Positions 2,737 through 10,375 of a DNA stretch of 20,862 nucleotides are shown piece after piece. Origin of the DNA: a virus. The translations under genes and the position numbers were made by a program. Below the pieces are notes generated by a model. That model had not been told where the DNA came from. It ran no database searches and saw only the letters and a list, made by a program, of their open reading frames with translations. The DNA lies in the IMG/VR virus record IMGVR_UViG_3300025138_013610, positions 1 through 20,862 of that record. One strand, written 5' to 3'. Numbering within the stretch: position 1 is the first letter of the stretch; each line of letters starts with the position of its first letter.

Positions 2737-3038
2737 TCCCGCACCGCCGTGCCGCTGAAGTCTCGGCGGTAGGGAAGCCTGCGCCGAACCGAGCCGTCGC
2801 CCGTCATGGGCGACGGTTTCTTCGCTCTGACCCGGATTGCCTCGAAGACCCGCCGCAGGGCGAAGGACCGAGCGATGCTCACAACGGTGAAGATCGCGCC
2901 CATTTTCAGGTTCTGCGCCAATGTGGTGTGCAGCCCGAAGGTCGGAAAGATCAGGATCTGCGTAAGAACCGCAACGCCGTAGCCGACAAACACGTTGGCG
3001 ATAGCCTCTATCAACGACATGGCCCGGCTTTGCTTCAT
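2718..3038 (-). CDS. Small membrane protein, DUF7220-like
   Basis: A 106-residue protein with two predicted membrane helices, about residues 8-27 (LIEAIANVFVGYGVAVLTQI) and 42-56 (AQNLKMGAIFTVVSIARS), followed by a basic segment (ALRRVFEAIRVRAKKP). This pattern matches small phage and prophage membrane proteins I associate with DUF7220; the family number is from memory. The ATG overlaps the methyltransferase stop (ATGA), so the two genes are coupled. The last 35 or so residues are arginine-rich, low in hydrophobics and encoded across the opposing operon's terminator. That tail may be non-conserved read-through. Function is unknown. Confidence 0.78.
   Translation of the reverse strand: MKQSRAMSLIEAIANVFVGYGVAVLTQILIFPTFGLHTTLAQNLKMGAIFTVVSIARSFALRRVFEAIRVRAKKPSPMTGDGSVRRRLPYRRDFSGTAVRDQSSIR
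2794..2824 (+). terminator. Rho-independent terminator for the small-gene operon
   Basis: A perfect 9-bp stem, CCGTCGCCC (2794-2802) and GGGCGACGG (2808-2816), closes the loop GTCAT and is followed by TTTCTTC. It ends the rightward operon 1910-2736. A second inverted repeat, ACCGCCG (2743-2749) / CGGCGGT (2764-2770), lies between the stop codon and this hairpin. The hairpin is inside the 3' part of the opposing minus-strand gene. Confidence 0.75.
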
Positions 3039-4294
3039 GCTGCAGCCCTTCCTTCTCTGATCTCATCGAAGGGTCGGCCATCGCTCTCCAGCACAGCCGC
3101 CTGACCCGTGAACTGCTGCCACCGCTGTATGGCGACATCGACATAGGCCGGGTTCAATTCGATCCCGAGGCAGACCCGGCCCGTTGTTTCCGCCGCGATC
3201 AGCGTGGTGCCAGATCCCATGAAGGGCTCATAGACCGCCTGACCCGGGCTTGAATTATTGAGGATCGGCCGGCGCATGCATTCGACGGGTTTCTGGGTCC
3301 CGTGCACGGTTTCCGCGTCCTGATCCTTGTTTGCGATCTGCCAGAGCGTTGTTTGTTTGCGGTCACCGGCCCAATGGCCCTTGCCGGTCTTTTTCACGGC
3401 ATAGAGGCAGGGCTCGTGCTGCCAGTGATAATCACCGCGGCTGAGCACCAGGCGATCCTTGGCCCAGATGATCTGGGACCGGATATTGAAGCCAGAGGCC
3501 TCGAGGCTTTCCGCAACCGTCATCGCATGCAGCGCGCCGTGCCAGACATAGGCCACATCTCCCGGAAATAGTGCCCAGGCCTCGCGCCAATCAGCGCGGT
3601 CGTCATTCAGCACCTTGCCGGTGCGCTTGGTCGCGGCAGCCCCTGCCTTGTTACGCCAGCCGGGATCGTATTCGACGCCATAGGGCGGATCGGTCACCAT
3701 CAGCAGTGGTTTCACATCACCGAGCAGGCGCTCGACATCGGTGGCCACCGTCGCGTCACCGCAGAGCAGCCGATGCTTGCCCAGCACCCAAAGATCGCCG
3801 GGGCGGCTGATCGGGGTTTCCGGGGCCTCGGGAACATCGTCCTCACCCTCGCGGGAGGCGGTTTCAGGGTCGACCTCACCGGCCAGCAGCGCCTCAAGCT
3901 CGGCATCATCGAATCCGATGAGCGACAGGTCGTAGTCCTCGGCCAGCAGGTCGTTCAGCTCGGCCGACAGCAGCGCCTCATCCCAGGTGCCCAGTTCCGT
4001 CAGCTTGTTGTCCGCGATGCGATAGGCCCGGCGTTGCGCCTCGGTCAAATGGCCCAGCACGATCACCGGTGCCTCGGTCAGCCCCAGCTGCGTGGCAGCC
4101 AGCACCCGGCCATGGCCCGCGATCAATTCGCCGTCGCCCGCGACCAGGCAGGGAACGGTCCAGCCGAACTCGGCCATGCTGGCAGCGATCTTCGCGACCT
4201 GGTCCGCGCCATGCGCCTTCGCGTTGTTCGCGTAGGGCTGGAGCTTGGCCAGCGGCCACATCTCGATTGCATCTGGGGCAAAGCTCAGGGTCAT
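3035..4294 (-). CDS. ParB-domain / DNA N4- or N6-adenine methyltransferase fusion
   Basis: A 419-residue phage-type DNA methyltransferase with an N-terminal ParB/Srx-like domain. Residues about 10-110 are ParB-like, with the box LIAGHGRVLAA (57-67) and then AYRIADNKLTE. The catalytic domain follows a short acidic linker. It has motif IV DPPY (202-205), target-side HGTQKPVE (331-338) and the SAM-binding motif FMGSGTT (358-364). Motif IV preceding the FxGxG block gives the beta-class order. It should methylate an adenine or N4-cytosine in a specific site; the site cannot be read from sequence. There is no adjacent restriction gene, so it is an orphan enzyme, probably for protection or regulation. 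The ribosome site is weak (GAGGCG about 13 bases upstream), so a start at residue 12 is possible. It is coupled to the downstream membrane-protein gene. Confidence 0.93.
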   Translation of the reverse strand: MTLSFAPDAIEMWPLAKLQPYANNAKAHGADQVAKIAASMAEFGWTVPCLVAGDGELIAGHGRVLAATQLGLTEAPVIVLGHLTEAQRRAYRIADNKLTELGTWDEALLSAELNDLLAEDYDLSLIGFDDAELEALLAGEVDPETASREGEDDVPEAPETPISRPGDLWVLGKHRLLCGDATVATDVERLLGDVKPLLMVTDPPYGVEYDPGWRNKAGAAATKRTGKVLNDDRADWREAWALFPGDVAYVWHGALHAMTVAESLEASGFNIRSQIIWAKDRLVLSRGDYHWQHEPCLYAVKKTGKGHWAGDRKQTTLWQIANKDQDAETVHGTQKPVECMRRPILNNSSPGQAVYEPFMGSGTTLIAAETTGRVCLGIELNPAYVDVAIQRWQQFTGQAAVLESDGRPFDEIREGRAAA

Positions 4295-4343
4295 GCGGGT
4301 CGGTTCGCCTCAATCGGGTGGACTCCGGACACCAGTGGTCCGC

Positions 4344-4365
4344 CTGGACTCCACGAGGGGTCCAG
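4344..4365 (+). other. Hairpin in the methyltransferase leader
   Basis: CTGGACTCC (4344-4352) pairs with GGGGTCCAG (4357-4365) around the loop ACGA: 9 bp including one T-G wobble on the plus strand. No T-run follows. It lies about 50 bases upstream of the methyltransferase start and contains a GACTC, so it could be an operator or a cruciform. Confidence 0.4.
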
Positions 4366-4452
4366 CGACCACCGGGCGTATCCGAAGCCAACGGTTTGTT
4401 TTGTCGTGGTTTTCAGCGGATAGCGGGTGGATGCCTGCCGGGGTGGCTTCCC

Positions 4453-4486
4453 AAAAAACGCGCCCTGTCGCTGGCGATATTGCGCG
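4453..4486 (-). terminator. Possible weak second minus-strand terminator
   Basis: Read on the minus strand, CGCGC (4482-4486) and GCGCG (4459-4463) can pair around an 18-base loop and are followed by six T. The stem is only 5 bp, so this is a weak candidate, tandem to the stronger terminator at 4592-4628. Confidence 0.3.
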
Positions 4487-4591
4487 CTTCGCCCGCCCGT
4501 ATACGTTTGGGGCCAGGAAGGACCCGCAAAGTCAGTGGGTTAGCCGATTGGACCCCGGCGGACTCCGGATGCCGCCAGGGTATCCACCACG

Positions 4592-4628
4592 AAAAACGGG
4601 GAGAGCCGTCTTCCAACGCACTCTCCCC
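4592..4628 (-). terminator. Rho-independent terminator closing the early operon
   Basis: On the minus strand GGGGAGAG (from 4628) pairs perfectly with CTCTCCCC (to 4598) around a 15-base loop and is followed by GTTTTTC. It lies about 70 bases after the DUF6362 stop codon and separates the long early operon from the methyltransferase unit. Confidence 0.75.
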
Positions 4629-4653
4629 ATCATGCCCTACGGGTAGCACGGAA

Positions 4654-4689
4654 ATGTTGCATGTGTCGAACACAAAAGTGTTGCAACAT
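4654..4689. promoter_or_regulatory. Inverted repeat ATGTTGCA...TGCAACAT
   Basis: Perfect 8-bp arms, ATGTTGCA (4654-4661) and TGCAACAT (4682-4689), are separated by 20 bases. Inside are two alternative small stems, TGTGT-CGA-ACACA (4662-4674) and ACAC-AAAA-GTGT (4670-4681). It sits just after the DUF6362 stop, before the terminator. It is a candidate protein-binding site or RNA fold; its purpose is unknown. Confidence 0.4.
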
Positions 4690-4700
4690 ATTGGAGTCGC

Positions 4701-5081: not shown

Positions 5082-5271
5082 GGCGGACCTCCCCCACGGG
5101 GCGTGGCCCATAGAGTTTGGTGCCCAGTTGTTCGACGAGTTCGCGTTCTGGCCAAGTCAGGCGATGGTCATCCACCGAGACCGCCAGCACACCTTGCTCG
5201 CGCCAGCCGTCACGCTTGACCTCTTCGGGTGAGCGGCGCTGGCCGCCGTAGCCTTTGGGGAAATAGTTCAT
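5074..5271 (-). CDS. Small hypothetical protein (65 aa)
   Basis: Not recognised. It encodes 65 residues beginning MNYFPKGYGGQRRSPEEVKRD and containing WPERELVEQLGTKLYG. The ATG at 5271 overlaps the resolvase stop codon (ATGA), which is why I prefer it to the in-frame ATG at 5301. The 3' end overlaps the DUF6362 start by 8 bases. The sequence is hydrophilic without Cys-pairs, signal peptide or membrane helix. Position between a resolvase and a regulator suggests a phage early function; nothing more can be said. Confidence 0.75.
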   Translation of the reverse strand: MNYFPKGYGGQRRSPEEVKRDGWREQGVLAVSVDDHRLTWPERELVEQLGTKLYGPRPVGEVRHG

Positions 5272-5753
5272 GCCACACCTCCCTGCGTCTCGATCGCCCA
5301 ATGCAGGATCGCGATGGCATCGGCCTCATTGTCGTCCGCAGGGCTGAAACCGCGAGCCTTGGCGGCCGCGATCATGGCGGCTTTGTTGGCGTTGCCCTTG
5401 CCAGTGGCGTGGCGCTTGATGGTTCCGACGGGCACACCCTCGTAGGGAATACCCCTCAGCTCTGCCCAGCTGGTCAGCGACGCCATCAGGCCGCCGTAGA
5501 CATGTGCTGCGTCGGTGCCGGCGTGACGGCGCACCTCTTCAAACCAGATCGTGCCGACCGGGCCGCTCAGCCGATCCAGTTCGGTGAGCCAATTGGTGAA
5601 GCGCAGATAGCGCATCCCGCCACCATCGTAGCGACCGGGCTTGAATGACGCGGTACCTGTGGTGACCAGCCCGTCAAAGCCACGAAGCGCCCAGCCCGTG
5701 GTAGTGCCAAGATCGAGCGCCAGGATGGGGCGCAGTTTTTGTGATTGGGTCAT
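5268..5753 (-). CDS. RuvC-like Holliday junction resolvase (RNase H fold)
   Basis: A 161-residue protein with the RNase H-fold pattern of RuvC: LALDLGTTTGWAL with D14, WFEEV with E72/E73, and C-terminal DDNEADAIAI with D141 and D145 as the likely metal ligands. VGTIKRHATGKGNANK (109-124) is the basic segment usual before the last acidic pair. It should cut Holliday junctions or branched replication intermediates before packaging. AGGAGG lies 5 bases before the ATG, a stronger site than in most genes of this operon. This fits re-initiation after the 390-base gap that separates it from the primase gene. It belongs with the replication and recombination genes upstream. Confidence 0.9.
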   Translation of the reverse strand: MTQSQKLRPILALDLGTTTGWALRGFDGLVTTGTASFKPGRYDGGGMRYLRFTNWLTELDRLSGPVGTIWFEEVRRHAGTDAAHVYGGLMASLTSWAELRGIPYEGVPVGTIKRHATGKGNANKAAMIAAAKARGFSPADDNEADAIAILHWAIETQGGVA

Positions 5754-6144
5754 GACGACCTCCTCTTCGATGTGCTGGACGCGGCGAGAGGGCTGGCCGG
5801 TGAAGGCTGCGGTCTCGCCAGGCCCCGAAGGGTGGTCTGGTCATGTCAGGTGCTGGGCGAATGATCCGCCCGGCACTTCTTTCAGTTTCTTCAGGCGAGC
5901 AGCTTGAAAGAAGTCAAGCTTTAAGCCTCGTTCTGTATAGGTAATATACCTTCTTTCAATATTTCAATTATTTCATGGTGTGCGTCATCCTATTTCCAAC
6001 CGCGCGCGCGAGAACACATACATACAAGGCACCTCTTGAAAGATTGAAAGAAGTGAAGGAAGGTAAATCCGCTCATGTTTTCAGGCGCTTGACCCTTCAC
6101 TTCCTTCAATTGAAGAAAGCCCGCGTTTGAAAGAAGCTCACCCG
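5754..6144. other. 391-base gene-free gap between primase-polymerase and resolvase genes
   Basis: No frame here has protein-like composition. The right two thirds hold the TTGAAAGAAG repeat cluster and an AT-rich block. The left part (5754-5870) is GC-rich with nothing recognisable beyond the resolvase ribosome site. A promoter for the resolvase operon could lie in the AT-rich block. Confidence 0.7.
5875..6136. repeat. Iteron-like cluster of TTGAAAGAAG repeats; candidate replication origin
   Basis: Exact TTGAAAGAAG copies lie at 5904-5913 (+), 5950-5959 (-), 6044-6053 (+) and 6127-6136 (+). Near copies are at 5875-5885 (-, CTGAAAGAAGT), 6036-6042 (+, TTGAAAG), 6099-6109 (-, one change) and 6110-6119 (+, TTGAAGAAAG). 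The last two abut as the palindrome CTTCAATTGAAG. Positions 5911-5990 are strongly AT-rich for this genome and include AGGTA-ATA-TACCT (5939-5951), and an alternating CG run lies at 6000-6010. The cluster fills the only large gap in the early operon, directly after the primase-polymerase stop. This is the layout of an iteron origin placed next to its replication gene. Origin function is inferred. Confidence 0.6.
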
Positions 6145-8415
6145 CTAGCCGGATAGCCGATACACCATGGCCCGGCGCCCCCCGGTGTCCCTCATGCCTG
6201 TGGTGATGTCGCCGCTTTCGATCAAAGTCAGCAGGATCTCGTCCCGATCCCGCGCCTTCAGCCATTGGGAAGCCCGGGTGATCTCGGATTTGGTGATGCC
6301 CTTGGCACCGGCCGTGCGGATGATCTCTTTCAGCCGCTTCAGATGGGCCTCTGTTTCGGTATCGGCCACGTGCCGCTCGATGGCTTCCATGGTTCTGGCT
6401 GCGAAGTTCCGCACGAAACCGATGGCCCATTCCGCCGCGCCGAGATCGATTATGGGTCGTGCCGGATCGCGACCGACGGCGACGATGAGCGAAAGCTTCA
6501 GTGCATTTTCTCCGATCCGGGCAAGGATCGCGGTGAACGCCGTGCCCCGCGCCGCCCGCAATTCCTCTGTCAGCGTGCCGCTCAACTCCTTGAAACGGGC
6601 TTTGGCCTCGTCTGACATCGGCACCGTGATGGGGTTCACCGCTGTTGTCTGGCCCGGGGTCATTCCGGTGAGATTGCCGCTTTGCAGACCGCCCCCGGCC
6701 GCCAGGGTCTTGAGCCCGTGGATCAACGCGGAGGGTGTTTGCCGAATACCGGCAGCGAGGTTTTCGTCGGGGTAATCCTCGTCGCTGGGCAGGATGAGAA
6801 ACCGGGCGAGCGATCCATCCACGACATTCGCGCCCTGCAGCGCGCCCCAGAAATGAAGGGGTGTCGTCGTGCCATAGACACAGAGACAGGGTTGGTTGAT
6901 GTCGCGCCTGTCATTCGAGCCGTCCCGGTTGGCGTATTCGGCCCCCAGGAACACCCCGCCAGCCGCCGTGTAGAGCTCGGTCATGTTGTCGAGGATCTCG
7001 GTGATGTGGCGCGGGCTGCGCTTGCGATCCGCCGCGGCCGACAGGAACATGCCGAACTCGTCGATCTGAAACAAGATCGCGGGCTGGCGGTGCAACGCCG
7101 TCAGGAGGCCTGCCCCCGAGGCGATCTTGTTGCCGCCGAGGTGATGGGCGAGCCCGGCTTCAAAGAACACCTCATTGATGATTTCCCGCGCGTGGTTCTT
7201 GCCCGACCCGCTATCGGCGATGCCGACGATATAGAGGTTTGAGCGCAGATTGCTTTCGGTCCGGTAGTTCCGCCCCATGAGCGCGCCGATGGCACAGAGG
7301 CTTGCCCCGAGTGACAGAAGCGGCTGCGGTCGCCGCGCGGTCGACAGCATGTAGGCGGTCAGATCCCCGACCAGCCCGTCCGGCATGTGTAGCGTGTAGG
7401 CGGCGTGATCGTCCGTCTCCGCGTCGGGCTCAGATGGGCTGCCCAACTGTGACAACAGCCCTGCAGCGGGGTGCGTTTCCACGCAGTCCGTGGATCCGTC
7501 AAGGCGCAGCGAGGCGTCGGGCTTCCAGCCGCGCTCCAGGGCGAGATGATAGATCGACCCCGCGCCGATCCGGTCCGGTCTGAAGCTTGTCCAGGTCTTG
7601 AGCGTGGTCGCCGGTACATCCTTTGCGGCCTGTGCCGACCATTGCGCGAAGACATCCTCGCCGTCATCGCCAAGCGCGCCTTTAAGCGCCATGCCGATCC
7701 GCATCCAACTGTCGTAATCAAGCTCGGCATTCGGCAGCCATTCGAGAGCCGCTTGAATCGCCGGCAGCGTGCCTGTCTGGCTGTGCCCGGTGAGATGTGG
7801 GTGCGCTGAGGGCGTCACCGCGAACCCGCGGTGGCGAACCGCGTCTGGAAGCATTGCCTGAGCCGCCTCCAGAAATGCCAACGCCTCATCGACCGTGATT
7901 GCCGGGAGGTCGGAGATATCGAGGTCAGCCAGACCTTCCTCGGGCCAAGCATAGGGTGCGCCCGTGTCGGGATGGTTGGCGTAGGCCAGAAACTGTTGTC
8001 CGAGACAGAGCACCTCGAGCGGATGGCGTTTGATGCCACGAAACGGCTCTGCCGCGCGATAGACCAGCAAACGCTTGGGGGCGCGTCCGATGCGCAGCGC
8101 CGGTGTGTCACCAAGGCGATCGCGCGCCAGCTTTTCGATCTTCAAGGCGAGCTCTGCATCCTCGGCGATGTCGATGTCGATGGCGGCAACCGCACCACCG
8201 ACGAGCCCGACACCGCAATCAGGCCAGGAAGACCATGTCGCGACTTCAACCTCGGTCGTGGGGCGCGCGGCATGGCGATTCCATTCTGGGTAATCTACCC
8301 AAGCACCGCGTTGGAAACGGCCAGGCTTTTTTGTTCCCGGCGCAATGGGCAGAATGGCGTAGCCATTGGTGACAAGCCGCGCGCCGTAGCGCGCCATGTG
8401 AGAGGAGCTCTGCAT
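6145..8415 (-). CDS. Bifunctional primase-polymerase with P-loop ATPase (replication initiator type)
   Basis: A 756-residue replication protein. Residues about 10-180 are a prim-pol (AEP-type) domain, with GVGLVGGAVAAIDIDI (69-83) supplying the catalytic aspartates D80 and D82. Residues about 220-297 look like a PriCT-2 domain (ALEWLPNAELDYDSWMRIGM). The ATPase part has Walker A GIADSGSGKN (398-407) and Walker B ILFQIDEFG (447-455), resembling DUF3987-type primase-helicases. The C-terminal 65 residues (GAKGITKSEITRASQWLKARDRDEIL) form a winged-helix segment. It should synthesise primers and open DNA. The ATG at 8415 is chosen because it overlaps the upstream stop as TGATG; a longer frame to 8490 runs through the previous gene. 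The repeat cluster follows directly. Confidence 0.92.
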   Translation of the reverse strand: MQSSSHMARYGARLVTNGYAILPIAPGTKKPGRFQRGAWVDYPEWNRHAARPTTEVEVATWSSWPDCGVGLVGGAVAAIDIDIAEDAELALKIEKLARDRLGDTPALRIGRAPKRLLVYRAAEPFRGIKRHPLEVLCLGQQFLAYANHPDTGAPYAWPEEGLADLDISDLPAITVDEALAFLEAAQAMLPDAVRHRGFAVTPSAHPHLTGHSQTGTLPAIQAALEWLPNAELDYDSWMRIGMALKGALGDDGEDVFAQWSAQAAKDVPATTLKTWTSFRPDRIGAGSIYHLALERGWKPDASLRLDGSTDCVETHPAAGLLSQLGSPSEPDAETDDHAAYTLHMPDGLVGDLTAYMLSTARRPQPLLSLGASLCAIGALMGRNYRTESNLRSNLYIVGIADSGSGKNHAREIINEVFFEAGLAHHLGGNKIASGAGLLTALHRQPAILFQIDEFGMFLSAAADRKRSPRHITEILDNMTELYTAAGGVFLGAEYANRDGSNDRRDINQPCLCVYGTTTPLHFWGALQGANVVDGSLARFLILPSDEDYPDENLAAGIRQTPSALIHGLKTLAAGGGLQSGNLTGMTPGQTTAVNPITVPMSDEAKARFKELSGTLTEELRAARGTAFTAILARIGENALKLSLIVAVGRDPARPIIDLGAAEWAIGFVRNFAARTMEAIERHVADTETEAHLKRLKEIIRTAGAKGITKSEITRASQWLKARDRDEILLTLIESGDITTGMRDTGGRRAMVYRLSG

Positions 8416-8801
8416 CAGAAAGGCACCTCCGGCACCATGCCGTCGAGCCGGGTGCGATCCCGCGCGGCAAGCTCGCGCAGGTGATCGCAATAGCCGGTGA
8501 CCACGACATCAATGAACTGATCCCATTCGGTCGCGCTCAAGGTCGCGAGATCGGATTTGCCGATGCTCTCCAGAAAAGCTCCGCCTTCTTGGCCGCCGAC
8601 AGTCATCGCCTCGGTCTCGTTGGGTGTGGGATCGATCATACCCTTCCTCCCATGGCAGATGTCCTGGCACGTCCGGCTACAGAGGGGCTTGCGGCTTTGG
8701 TCTCGCCGCGGGTCCGAAACGGGGAAGACAGGGTCGAACCAGCCAAGCCCACGAGGTTGCCGGTGGCAGACGGCGCAGAGGCCGTTGTGGAATGCGTGCA
8801 T
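8415..8801 (-). CDS. DUF6511-like protein with cysteine-rich N-terminus
   Basis: A 128-residue protein that I associate with DUF6511 (number from memory). The N-terminus has a zinc-finger-like Cys set, C9/C12 (CAVC) and C41/C45 (CSRTC), with C49 nearby, around GLGWFDP. The conserved-looking middle is GRKGMIDPTPNETEAM and the end is WDQFIDVVVTGYCDHLRELAARD...PEVPF. A nucleic-acid-binding role is inferred. The ATG lies 166 bases inside the helicase frame, and its stop overlaps the primase-polymerase ATG as TGATG. A start further downstream would remove the first Cys pair, so the 8801 start is preferred despite the overlap. Confidence 0.82.
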   Translation of the reverse strand: MHAFHNGLCAVCHRQPRGLGWFDPVFPVSDPRRDQSRKPLCSRTCQDICHGRKGMIDPTPNETEAMTVGGQEGGAFLESIGKSDLATLSATEWDQFIDVVVTGYCDHLRELAARDRTRLDGMVPEVPF

Positions 8802-10375
8802 GGGTCAAACCTGTAATCGGTGATCTCGAAATAGCGGCCCGACGGACGGACCGAGATGTGGCTGGGACGTGCCAAGCTGCGGGATAGCGTCAGGGCCTCG
8901 TTCACACTGCGCGGCACGGGCTGACCGGGCGCACGCTTGCGCCACCAGTCTTCTGCCTTTCGCCGCGCGTAGCCCTGATGCTCGAAGCAGATCCACTCCT
9001 GATAGGTCGTGAGCCCGCAGCTATACGTCACTTTCAGCGAGGGCCGACCGCCCCGCTTGTCATGACGGCTGTAGGACAGGTTGCTCACGGCGACCCATTG
9101 CGGTGCCTTGGGCGACAGGACGGGCAAAGTGGCTGCGGTCGGCGCAATCTTCACCTCACGCGGTGGGAACACATAGCCGCAATCCGGGCATTCGGTCGCC
9201 GAGAGCGCGATGATGCTGTCGCACTCCGGGCAGACCTTGGTCGGTGCCTCGCCCCCGCCGCCCTCACCGGGGCGCTTGGGCCGCACTAGATCGATCGGTC
9301 CGTGGCGGCGGACATTGCCCGCGAAGTCCAGCACCAGGCAGTTCTCCTTGCCCGGCGCGAGGCGGGTGCCGCGCCCGACCATCTGCACATAGAGCCCGGC
9401 CGATTGCGTGGGACGCAGGAGCGCGATCAGGTCGACCCCTGGCGCGTTGAAGCCGGTGGTCAGTACGCCCATCGAGGCCAGCGCCCGGATTTCGCCGCGC
9501 TTGAAGGCGGCAAGGATCCCATCGCGCTCGTCTTTCGGCGTGTCGCCAAAGATCGTGCGGCAGCTGATGCCCTGGCGGCCGAATTCCTCGGCCACATGGA
9601 GCGCGTGCTCGACGCCCGAGCAGAAGGCCAGCCAGGATTTCCGGTCGCGGCCATGCTCGATGATCTCGGTGACGGCCGCACGGGTGATGGCGTCTTGGTC
9701 GACCGCCGCCGCCAGATCGCGTGCAATGAAATCGCCAGCGCGGGTGCCCACCTTCGAGACATCCAGCCGGGTGGCGGGCTGCTTCGAGACCAGAGGGCTC
9801 AGATACCCCGCATCGATCAGTTCGCGGACCGGGGCCTCATAGGCGATGTCGGTGAAGAGCGCGTTCTGCCCCTCGTGCAGCATCCCGCAGTCGAGCCGGA
9901 ACGGCGTGGCGGTCAGCCCGATCACCTTGAGCGCGGGGTTGATCGCCTTCAGCGCGTCGAGGAAGCGCCGATACATGGTGCTCGACTTGCCGGGGATCAG
10001 ATGCGCCTCGTCGATCAGCACCAGATCGGTATGGCCGATCTCGGCGGCGCGGCGGTGGATTGACTGGATGCCCGCGAACAGAATCTGCGCCTGAGCCTCG
10101 CGCTTGCCGAGGCCCGCCGAATAGATGCCCGCCGGGGCATCGGGCCAGAGGCCGATCATCTCGGCATGGTTCTGCGCGATCAGCTCGCGGACATGGGTCA
10201 CGATCAGGATCCGCTGGTCGGGCCAGGCCTTCAGTACCCCCTCGATGAAGGAGGCCATGACGAGCGACTTGCCGCCCGCAGTCGGGATCACCACCAACGG
10301 ATTGCCGGTGTGGGTCTGGAAATAGCCGTAGATCGCGGTGATCGCGGCTTCTTGATAGGGTCGCAGGGTCAGCAT
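8636..10375 (-). CDS. SF2 DEAD/DEAH-type DNA helicase
   Basis: A 579-residue superfamily 2 helicase. The motifs are in order: Q-like RPYQEAA (5-11), Walker A PTAGGKS (31-37), DEAH (122-125), TATPFR (155-160), VLTTGFNAPG (304-313) and motif VI QMVGRGTR (331-338). A zinc ribbon follows, C382/C385 and C396/C399. The domain after that (about 425-525) contains YSCGLTTYQEWICFEHQGYARRKAEDWW. I know it from phage helicases of this group. It likely unwinds or remodels DNA during phage replication. The start overlaps the upstream nuclease stop (ATGCTGA). The last 54 residues, after EITDYRFDP, are low-complexity, serine/alanine-rich and encoded over the next gene; they are probably not conserved. Confidence 0.94.
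   Translation of the reverse strand: MLTLRPYQEAAITAIYGYFQTHTGNPLVVIPTAGGKSLVMASFIEGVLKAWPDQRILIVTHVRELIAQNHAEMIGLWPDAPAGIYSAGLGKREAQAQILFAGIQSIHRRAAEIGHTDLVLIDEAHLIPGKSSTMYRRFLDALKAINPALKVIGLTATPFRLDCGMLHEGQNALFTDIAYEAPVRELIDAGYLSPLVSKQPATRLDVSKVGTRAGDFIARDLAAAVDQDAITRAAVTEIIEHGRDRKSWLAFCSGVEHALHVAEEFGRQGISCRTIFGDTPKDERDGILAAFKRGEIRALASMGVLTTGFNAPGVDLIALLRPTQSAGLYVQMVGRGTRLAPGKENCLVLDFAGNVRRHGPIDLVRPKRPGEGGGGEAPTKVCPECDSIIALSATECPDCGYVFPPREVKIAPTAATLPVLSPKAPQWVAVSNLSYSRHDKRGGRPSLKVTYSCGLTTYQEWICFEHQGYARRKAEDWWRKRAPGQPVPRSVNEALTLSRSLARPSHISVRPSGRYFEITDYRFDPCTHSTTASAPSATGNLVGLAGSTLSSPFRTRGETKAASPSVAGRARTSAMGGRV

Follow-up and report, generated by a model that had tools for sequence, protein, structure and literature searches.

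A putative replication origin whose repeats switch together with the wing of a primase-polymerase in uncharacterised alphaproteobacterial prophages

What is the role of a 391-nt intergenic gap, rich in short repeats, that directly follows the gene of a phage primase-polymerase? The question arises from a stretch of 20,862 nt (the window), positions 1 to 20,862 of the IMG/VR virus record IMGVR_UViG_3300025138_013610, read on one strand. The gap (5754-6144) starts at the stop codon of the primase-polymerase gene (6145-8430, minus strand), holds the repeats inside it, and separates this gene from that of a RuvC-like Holliday junction resolvase (5268-5753, minus strand; phrog_159, E 7e-30), which lies downstream of the putative origin. 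According to Pfam and PHROG matches, the operon of the primase-polymerase also encodes a DEAD/ResIII helicase, a Cas4-like exonuclease, a DUF669 ssDNA-binding-type protein and a Sak4-like ATPase, while terminase and serine integrase genes are found near opposite ends of the window. This gene set is a temperate phage replication module, and its relatives occur in the genomes of Rhodobacterales and other Alphaproteobacteria; the group is one of uncharacterised alphaproteobacterial prophages. A first-pass annotation had described the gap as the only large one in a 9-kb operon, which holds for that stretch, with the addition that the next large gap of the window (4295-4700; 406 nt, between the DUF6362 and the ParB-like/methyltransferase genes) lies just outside it and is free of such repeats. 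No Rfam match was found anywhere in the window.

The repeats are 10-bp words that occur in both orientations. Four exact copies of TTGAAAGAAG, as previously annotated, lie at 5904-5913 (plus strand; slot -71, counted from the leader of the RuvC-like gene), 5950-5959 (minus; slot -118, inside an AT-rich block), 6044-6053 (plus) and 6127-6136 (plus; slot -295). To these are added two copies with one mismatch on the minus strand, CTGAAAGAAG at 5876-5885 (slot -43) and TTGAAGGAAG at 6100-6109 (slot -267), and two weaker copies on the plus strand, TTGAAAGATT at 6036-6045 and GTGAAGGAAG at 6053-6062, which together with the exact copy at 6044-6053 make up a tandem cluster of three overlapping repeats (6036-6062, plus strand; spacing of 8-9 nt; slots -204, -212 and -221). 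In-phase direct iterons of 18-22 bp are absent. Allowing at most one mismatch, TTGAAAGAAG occurs six times in the gap, with 0.66 expected, and nowhere else in the window, and none of 100 shuffles reached six copies. Likewise, not one of 2000 dinucleotide shuffles of the gap contained any 10-mer at four copies or any 9-mer at five, and no other 391-nt stretch of the window attains these counts. An equal frequency of the 10-mer elsewhere in the element, which would have refuted the initial proposal, was not met: among the 55 loci that share this word, 204 copies fall in the gap and the 820 kb outside contain a single one. The host genome of the closest relative (3.8 Mb) has six copies of TTGAAAGAAG, four of them in the gap.

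Other features accompany the repeats. The annotated AT-rich block proved to be the lowest-GC 40-mer of the whole window (5934-5976; 20% GC over 40 nt), a candidate DNA unwinding element with repeats on both sides, slots -295 to -204 on one and slots -71 and -43 on the other. Between the tandem repeats and this block lies, in most origins, an alternating purine-pyrimidine tract of the Z-DNA-prone type (CCGCGCGCGCGAGAACACATACATACAA at 6000-6027 in the window); the longest alternating run averages 15.0 in 124 origins, versus 8.9 in shuffles, and the type of sequence in the tract seems to follow the class of the origin. The GC skew, for which a check had been proposed with the earlier annotation, also changes at the gap: 108 of 110 loci have a higher skew on the RuvC side than on the PrimPol side, even though the genes run in one direction. 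These loci share homologous genes and are not independent, so that they should be regarded as one observation repeated rather than as 110; the difference is in keeping with a two-way replication from the gap. Finally, the strongly conserved leader of the RuvC-like gene (5754-5850, minus strand) carries a covarying hairpin, with its stem within about 5780-5824, where 96% of the cells are paired and 23 two-sided changes, most of them at one pair, compare with 5.5 in shuffles (folding z of -2.6). No Rfam family corresponds to this hairpin, which could be a translation control element or a part of the origin.

The comparison with relatives, which comprised 80 viral contigs (79-95% identity to the primase-polymerase) and 80 genome contigs down to about 60%, revealed that the arrangement is more conserved than the repeat itself. 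More than 100 relatives retain the length of the gap, the positions and orientations of the repeats and the AT-rich block, which is present in all origin classes, while the repeat word varies. In loci that have the resolvase gene, the gap nearly always measures 320-500 nt; for most close relatives in classes A and B, the range is 384-399 nt. Class A, to which the window belongs, uses the word TTGAARGAAG, and class B the word TTGAARGATT. Both classes share the slots -295, -221, -212, -204, -118, -71 and -43, with position and orientation kept within a few bases. The exact 10-mer is missing in many relatives, a seeming refutation of the origin reading, which it is not, because those origins hold another word at the same places; the class-B word TTGAAAGATT is as confined as its class-A counterpart, with 133 copies in the gap and none in 696 kb outside (46 class-B loci). 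One class-B word TTGAAAGATT is also contained, within the tandem cluster, in 36 of the 55 class-A origins, which indicates that discrimination may not be absolute. The final member of that cluster (AATCTTTCAAGAGGA on the coding strand; 6036-6045 in the window) is nearly invariant in classes A, B and C, even where the other words have switched.

Class C has a weak repeat set. In its members (L009, L012, L053, L084, L088 and others), the primase-polymerase has a basic C-terminal extension, xGPWRDxSGRKxxQKE, and the origin, about 345 nt long, keeps no more than 3-4 TTGAA sites; a simple rule of correspondence between wing and word does not explain them. Among deep relatives with [ST]xTK wings, the words TTGAGGAATT, TTGAGGGATT and TTGAAGAATT also end in ATT. 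Downstream of more distant primase genes, from Pseudomonas phage 73, Synechococcus phage JY40, Pseudoalteromonas phage H40/1, Roseobacter phage CRP-902 and the Sulfitobacter plasmid pDSM110093_d, no repeat family above shuffles was found, so the arrangement seems limited to relatives of roughly at least 60% identity. The Sulfitobacter plasmid (L362, 21.5 kb) has a gene for DUF669 and carries PrimPol-PriCT-2 and DUF3987 on separate genes; downstream, a long inverted repeat (8600-8978) takes the place of iterons and is either a terminator or possibly an origin of the stem-loop type known from pRN1. Some host genomes carry two or three elements (L096/L098, L090/L101, L091/L099/L133, L097/L119 and L093/L161), mostly, not always, with different origin classes, too few cases to judge incompatibility.

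Which protein could read these words? The candidate initiator is the primase-polymerase, with PrimPol, PriCT-2 and DUF3987 domains (PF09250, 44.2 bits; PF08707, 57.8 bits; PF13148, 51.6 bits, all over the gathering cut-off) followed by a C-terminal winged helix. Annotated before as a protein of 756 aa, it measures 761 aa from the start used here, or 781 from an upstream TTG, and its true start is undetermined. The PrimPol domain gives a fold match to the structure of the pRN1 PrimPol (1rni); a PDB sequence search with the profile of the primase-polymerase gave no relative. The helicase part of the full-length AlphaFold2 model is of low confidence. The C-terminal domain (residues 692-761, encoded at 6148-6357, minus strand) was modelled as a fragment with a mean pLDDT of 90, and its matches among PDB structures include many winged-helix proteins. 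In this model, residues 749-752 (T-G-G-R; codons at 6175-6186, minus strand) are predicted to occupy the turn between the two strands of the wing (88-95 and 98-105 of a fragment starting at residue 655).

It is precisely this turn that switches with the repeats. The protein ends in MRDTGGRRAMVYR in class A and in MRGSSTKQAMVYR in class B. The wing TGGR accompanies class A in 55 loci and class B in none, and the wing S[S/A]T[K/R] without a C-terminal extension accompanies class B in 45 loci and class A in none. Out of 761 columns compared in 98 loci, only 749-752 predict the class perfectly; the best column outside the C-terminal tail reaches 0.83, as does the best column of the RuvC-like protein. 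Position 750 can be R in class A (L085, L166 and L167). Position 748 (D/G) was considered as a determinant and ruled out, given that L162 combines D with a class-B origin. The helices that precede the wing hardly differ between A and B, which agrees with a repeat made of a shared core, TTGAA, and a variable 3′ end.

The rule was also met in a held-out set of 41 previously unused loci from three further scans, where T-x-G-R wings went with class A in nine of nine cases and other wings in none of 32, although these loci are not all independent, with seven of the nine T-x-G-R loci in one clade. The contrast between A and other words is repeated in a separate lineage (L166 and L167 versus L168 and L169), and lineages that have diverged to 72-75% protein identity still obey (L117, L119-L134 and L166-L169). 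These data point to residues 749-752 as what reads the repeat word, and to the primase-polymerase as the origin initiator, because the word and the four wing residues change together across about 140 related phages. The assignment of origin specificity to the C-terminal domain, through these residues, comes from covariation alone.

The history of these changes is one of repeated exchange. In the best tree, built without the wing sequence, word and wing change 12 times each, with at least eight changes on supported branches, and all eight independent pairs of changes go the same way without exception (sign test, p = 0.0078). Pairs of different class (L075/L082, L022/L060, L064/L072 and L016/L068, with a lesser drop in L053/L076) mostly keep 80-100% identity until the wing, fall to 30-70% across wing and origin and recover 80-100% at the leader, whereas pairs of the same class show no such drop. 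A drop limited to this segment indicates that wing and origin have been exchanged as a cassette, whose left edge lies repeatedly at the wing. In L076, an origin located just after 10241 mixes A and B words beside a primase-polymerase with the wing frame shifted by one base; its gene is 97% identical to a class-C gene until the wing, and it may represent a failed recombinant or an assembly error.

A cassette of this kind could nonetheless result from mere hitchhiking, if recombination had happened to replace the 3′-terminal part of the gene along with the neighbouring DNA and the repeats were not read by the wing, in which case the gap may still be an origin. Only about 40 nt separate the wing from the first repeat, so linkage alone could hold both together after a crossover, and the spacers of the cassettes differ too, which indicates that whole origins, and not single bases, were exchanged. 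Scattered breakpoints should, however, yield discordant or mixed sets, and apart from L076, with its shifted wing frame, none appears among 101 loci of classes A and B or the 41 held-out ones; the recurrent left edge at the wing and the obedience of diverged lineages to the same rule also speak against it. We consider this explanation improbable, but linkage as the cause of the co-switching cannot be fully excluded.

Two other readings would place the origin elsewhere or give the gap another function, and both seem to us still weaker. The repeats could be operators of the RuvC-like gene or operon, bound by the primase-polymerase or by another phage regulator. A promoter of that gene would naturally sit in the gap, the conserved leader hairpin lies immediately upstream of the same gene, and the initiators of iteron replicons often repress transcription as well. 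Yet no sigma-70-like promoter was found in 5600-6300 (a weak test), operators would not need seven or more sites flanking an AT-rich block over 260 nt, the partner in the co-switching is the wing of a PrimPol-helicase and not that of a regulator, and the GC skew changes at the gap; we therefore regard operators as very unlikely. Least credible of all is a centromere-like partition site or a packaging site, suggested by intergenic repeats near DNA-metabolism genes and by a gene with an N-terminal ParB-like domain at 3035-4294. This ParB-like domain forms one protein with a DNA methyltransferase (PF01555), no ParA gene was found among those genes of the window that were searched, about 4.5 kb separate the gap from the terminase gene, and neither function accounts for the co-switching with the primase-polymerase wing, so both were rejected.

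The reading that we favour, and hold to be very probable, is that the gap is a phage replication origin and that the PrimPol-DUF3987 protein acts on it as initiator and self-loading primase-helicase, with its winged helix on the repeats, a proposal built on sequence in the absence of binding or replication data. The repeats, their fixed layout, the AT-rich block and the strict co-switching of word and wing are established by comparison, whereas binding, the assignment of protein parts to bases, oligomer loading, unwinding, priming and the direction of replication are inferred. In the proposed mechanism, the C-terminal winged helix would bind the 10-bp repeats flanking the AT-rich block, its near-invariant helices reading the shared core TTGAA and its wing turn (749-752) discriminating between GAAG and GATT at the 3′ end. 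Bound protomers would then assemble into oligomers, the AT-rich block would melt and the helicase would load, and the PrimPol domain would make the first primers, leading to a two-way (theta) replication of the excised and circularised prophage. The initial idea of an iteron origin beside its initiator gene thus gains support from covariation, layout, AT-rich block and skew, still without replication data, and loses the likeness to classical plasmid iterons in its spacing.

A further proposal is more tentative, and we would place it slightly below even chances: that origin specificity resides in the four-residue wing turn rather than in the recognition helix, and that wing and origin form a mobile allele, often exchanged, with at least three origin types and further words in deep relatives. 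Such frequent exchange suggests selection on origin identity, through prophage compatibility or through escape from an origin-directed attack, as in PLE versus ICP1. If true, allelic origins could allow the independent replication of co-resident prophages, or an escape from nucleases or parasites that target one origin type. With the favoured reading alone, the family of PrimPol-helicase-winged-helix initiators would gain a concrete origin and named residues likely to read it, and the natural swaps between A and B would offer matched pairs for work on DNA recognition. Within the open-licence papers to which our survey of the literature was confined, those on DUF3987, phages and replication origins describe no such origin, and we found no report of a word- and wing-switching origin for the PrimPol-DUF3987 phage family, an absence that is no proof of novelty.

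Among known systems, the directly repeated, in-phase 18-22 bp iterons of classical plasmid origins (RepA/RepE/TrfA type) are not met here, and the layout is nearer to that of SaPI, whose origin has an AT-rich region flanked by repeats. By analogy, the phage system may work like SaPI Rep/ori or PLE RepA/ori. In the SaPI Rep helicase/origin and in SCCmec Cch2, the initiator helicase uses its C-terminal DNA-binding domain to recognise short repeats that immediately follow the gene encoding it (PMC7581432). The phage gap resembles SaPI in its short repeats directly 3′ of a candidate initiator gene, on both sides of an AT-rich block, and in a specificity located, from covariation only, in the C-terminal domain. 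It differs from SaPI and Cch2 in the PrimPol domain and DUF3987 core that its candidate initiator carries in addition, in a specificity mapped to the wing turn, and in its location on a prophage of Alphaproteobacteria that encodes a terminase of its own. In the PLE satellites of Vibrio cholerae, the DNA-binding domain of RepA_N and the origin covary and have been swapped as a module several times, with the cognate specificity proven by origin swaps (PMC8263062). The modular covariation of initiator and origin is common to both systems, but PLE has an unrelated initiator, RepA_N, and semi-palindromic iterons of about 30 bp, and comprises satellites of one phage, whereas in the phage group only the wing of the winged helix is exchanged, and this across the whole group.

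The closest parallels in domain architecture come from other mobile elements. The ORF904 protein of the crenarchaeal plasmid pRN1 combines PrimPol, helicase and winged helix, and the replication gene is immediately followed by the origin, a 100-nt stem-loop explicitly without iterons (PMC4234260). The phage protein shares with it a similar domain order, an origin placed directly 3′ of the gene and the fold match of the PrimPol domain (1rni), but in the phage gap repeats dominate, and the covarying hairpin sits in the leader of the RuvC-like gene. The same architecture as that of the phage protein is found in the PrimPol-PV1 supergroup (AEP-PriCT-P-loop ATPase-winged helix), present on mobile elements, whose winged helix was suggested to recognise origins (PMC5862659). 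What was there a suggestion only is accompanied here by matching repeats and candidate specificity residues, with which the published idea would become directly testable.
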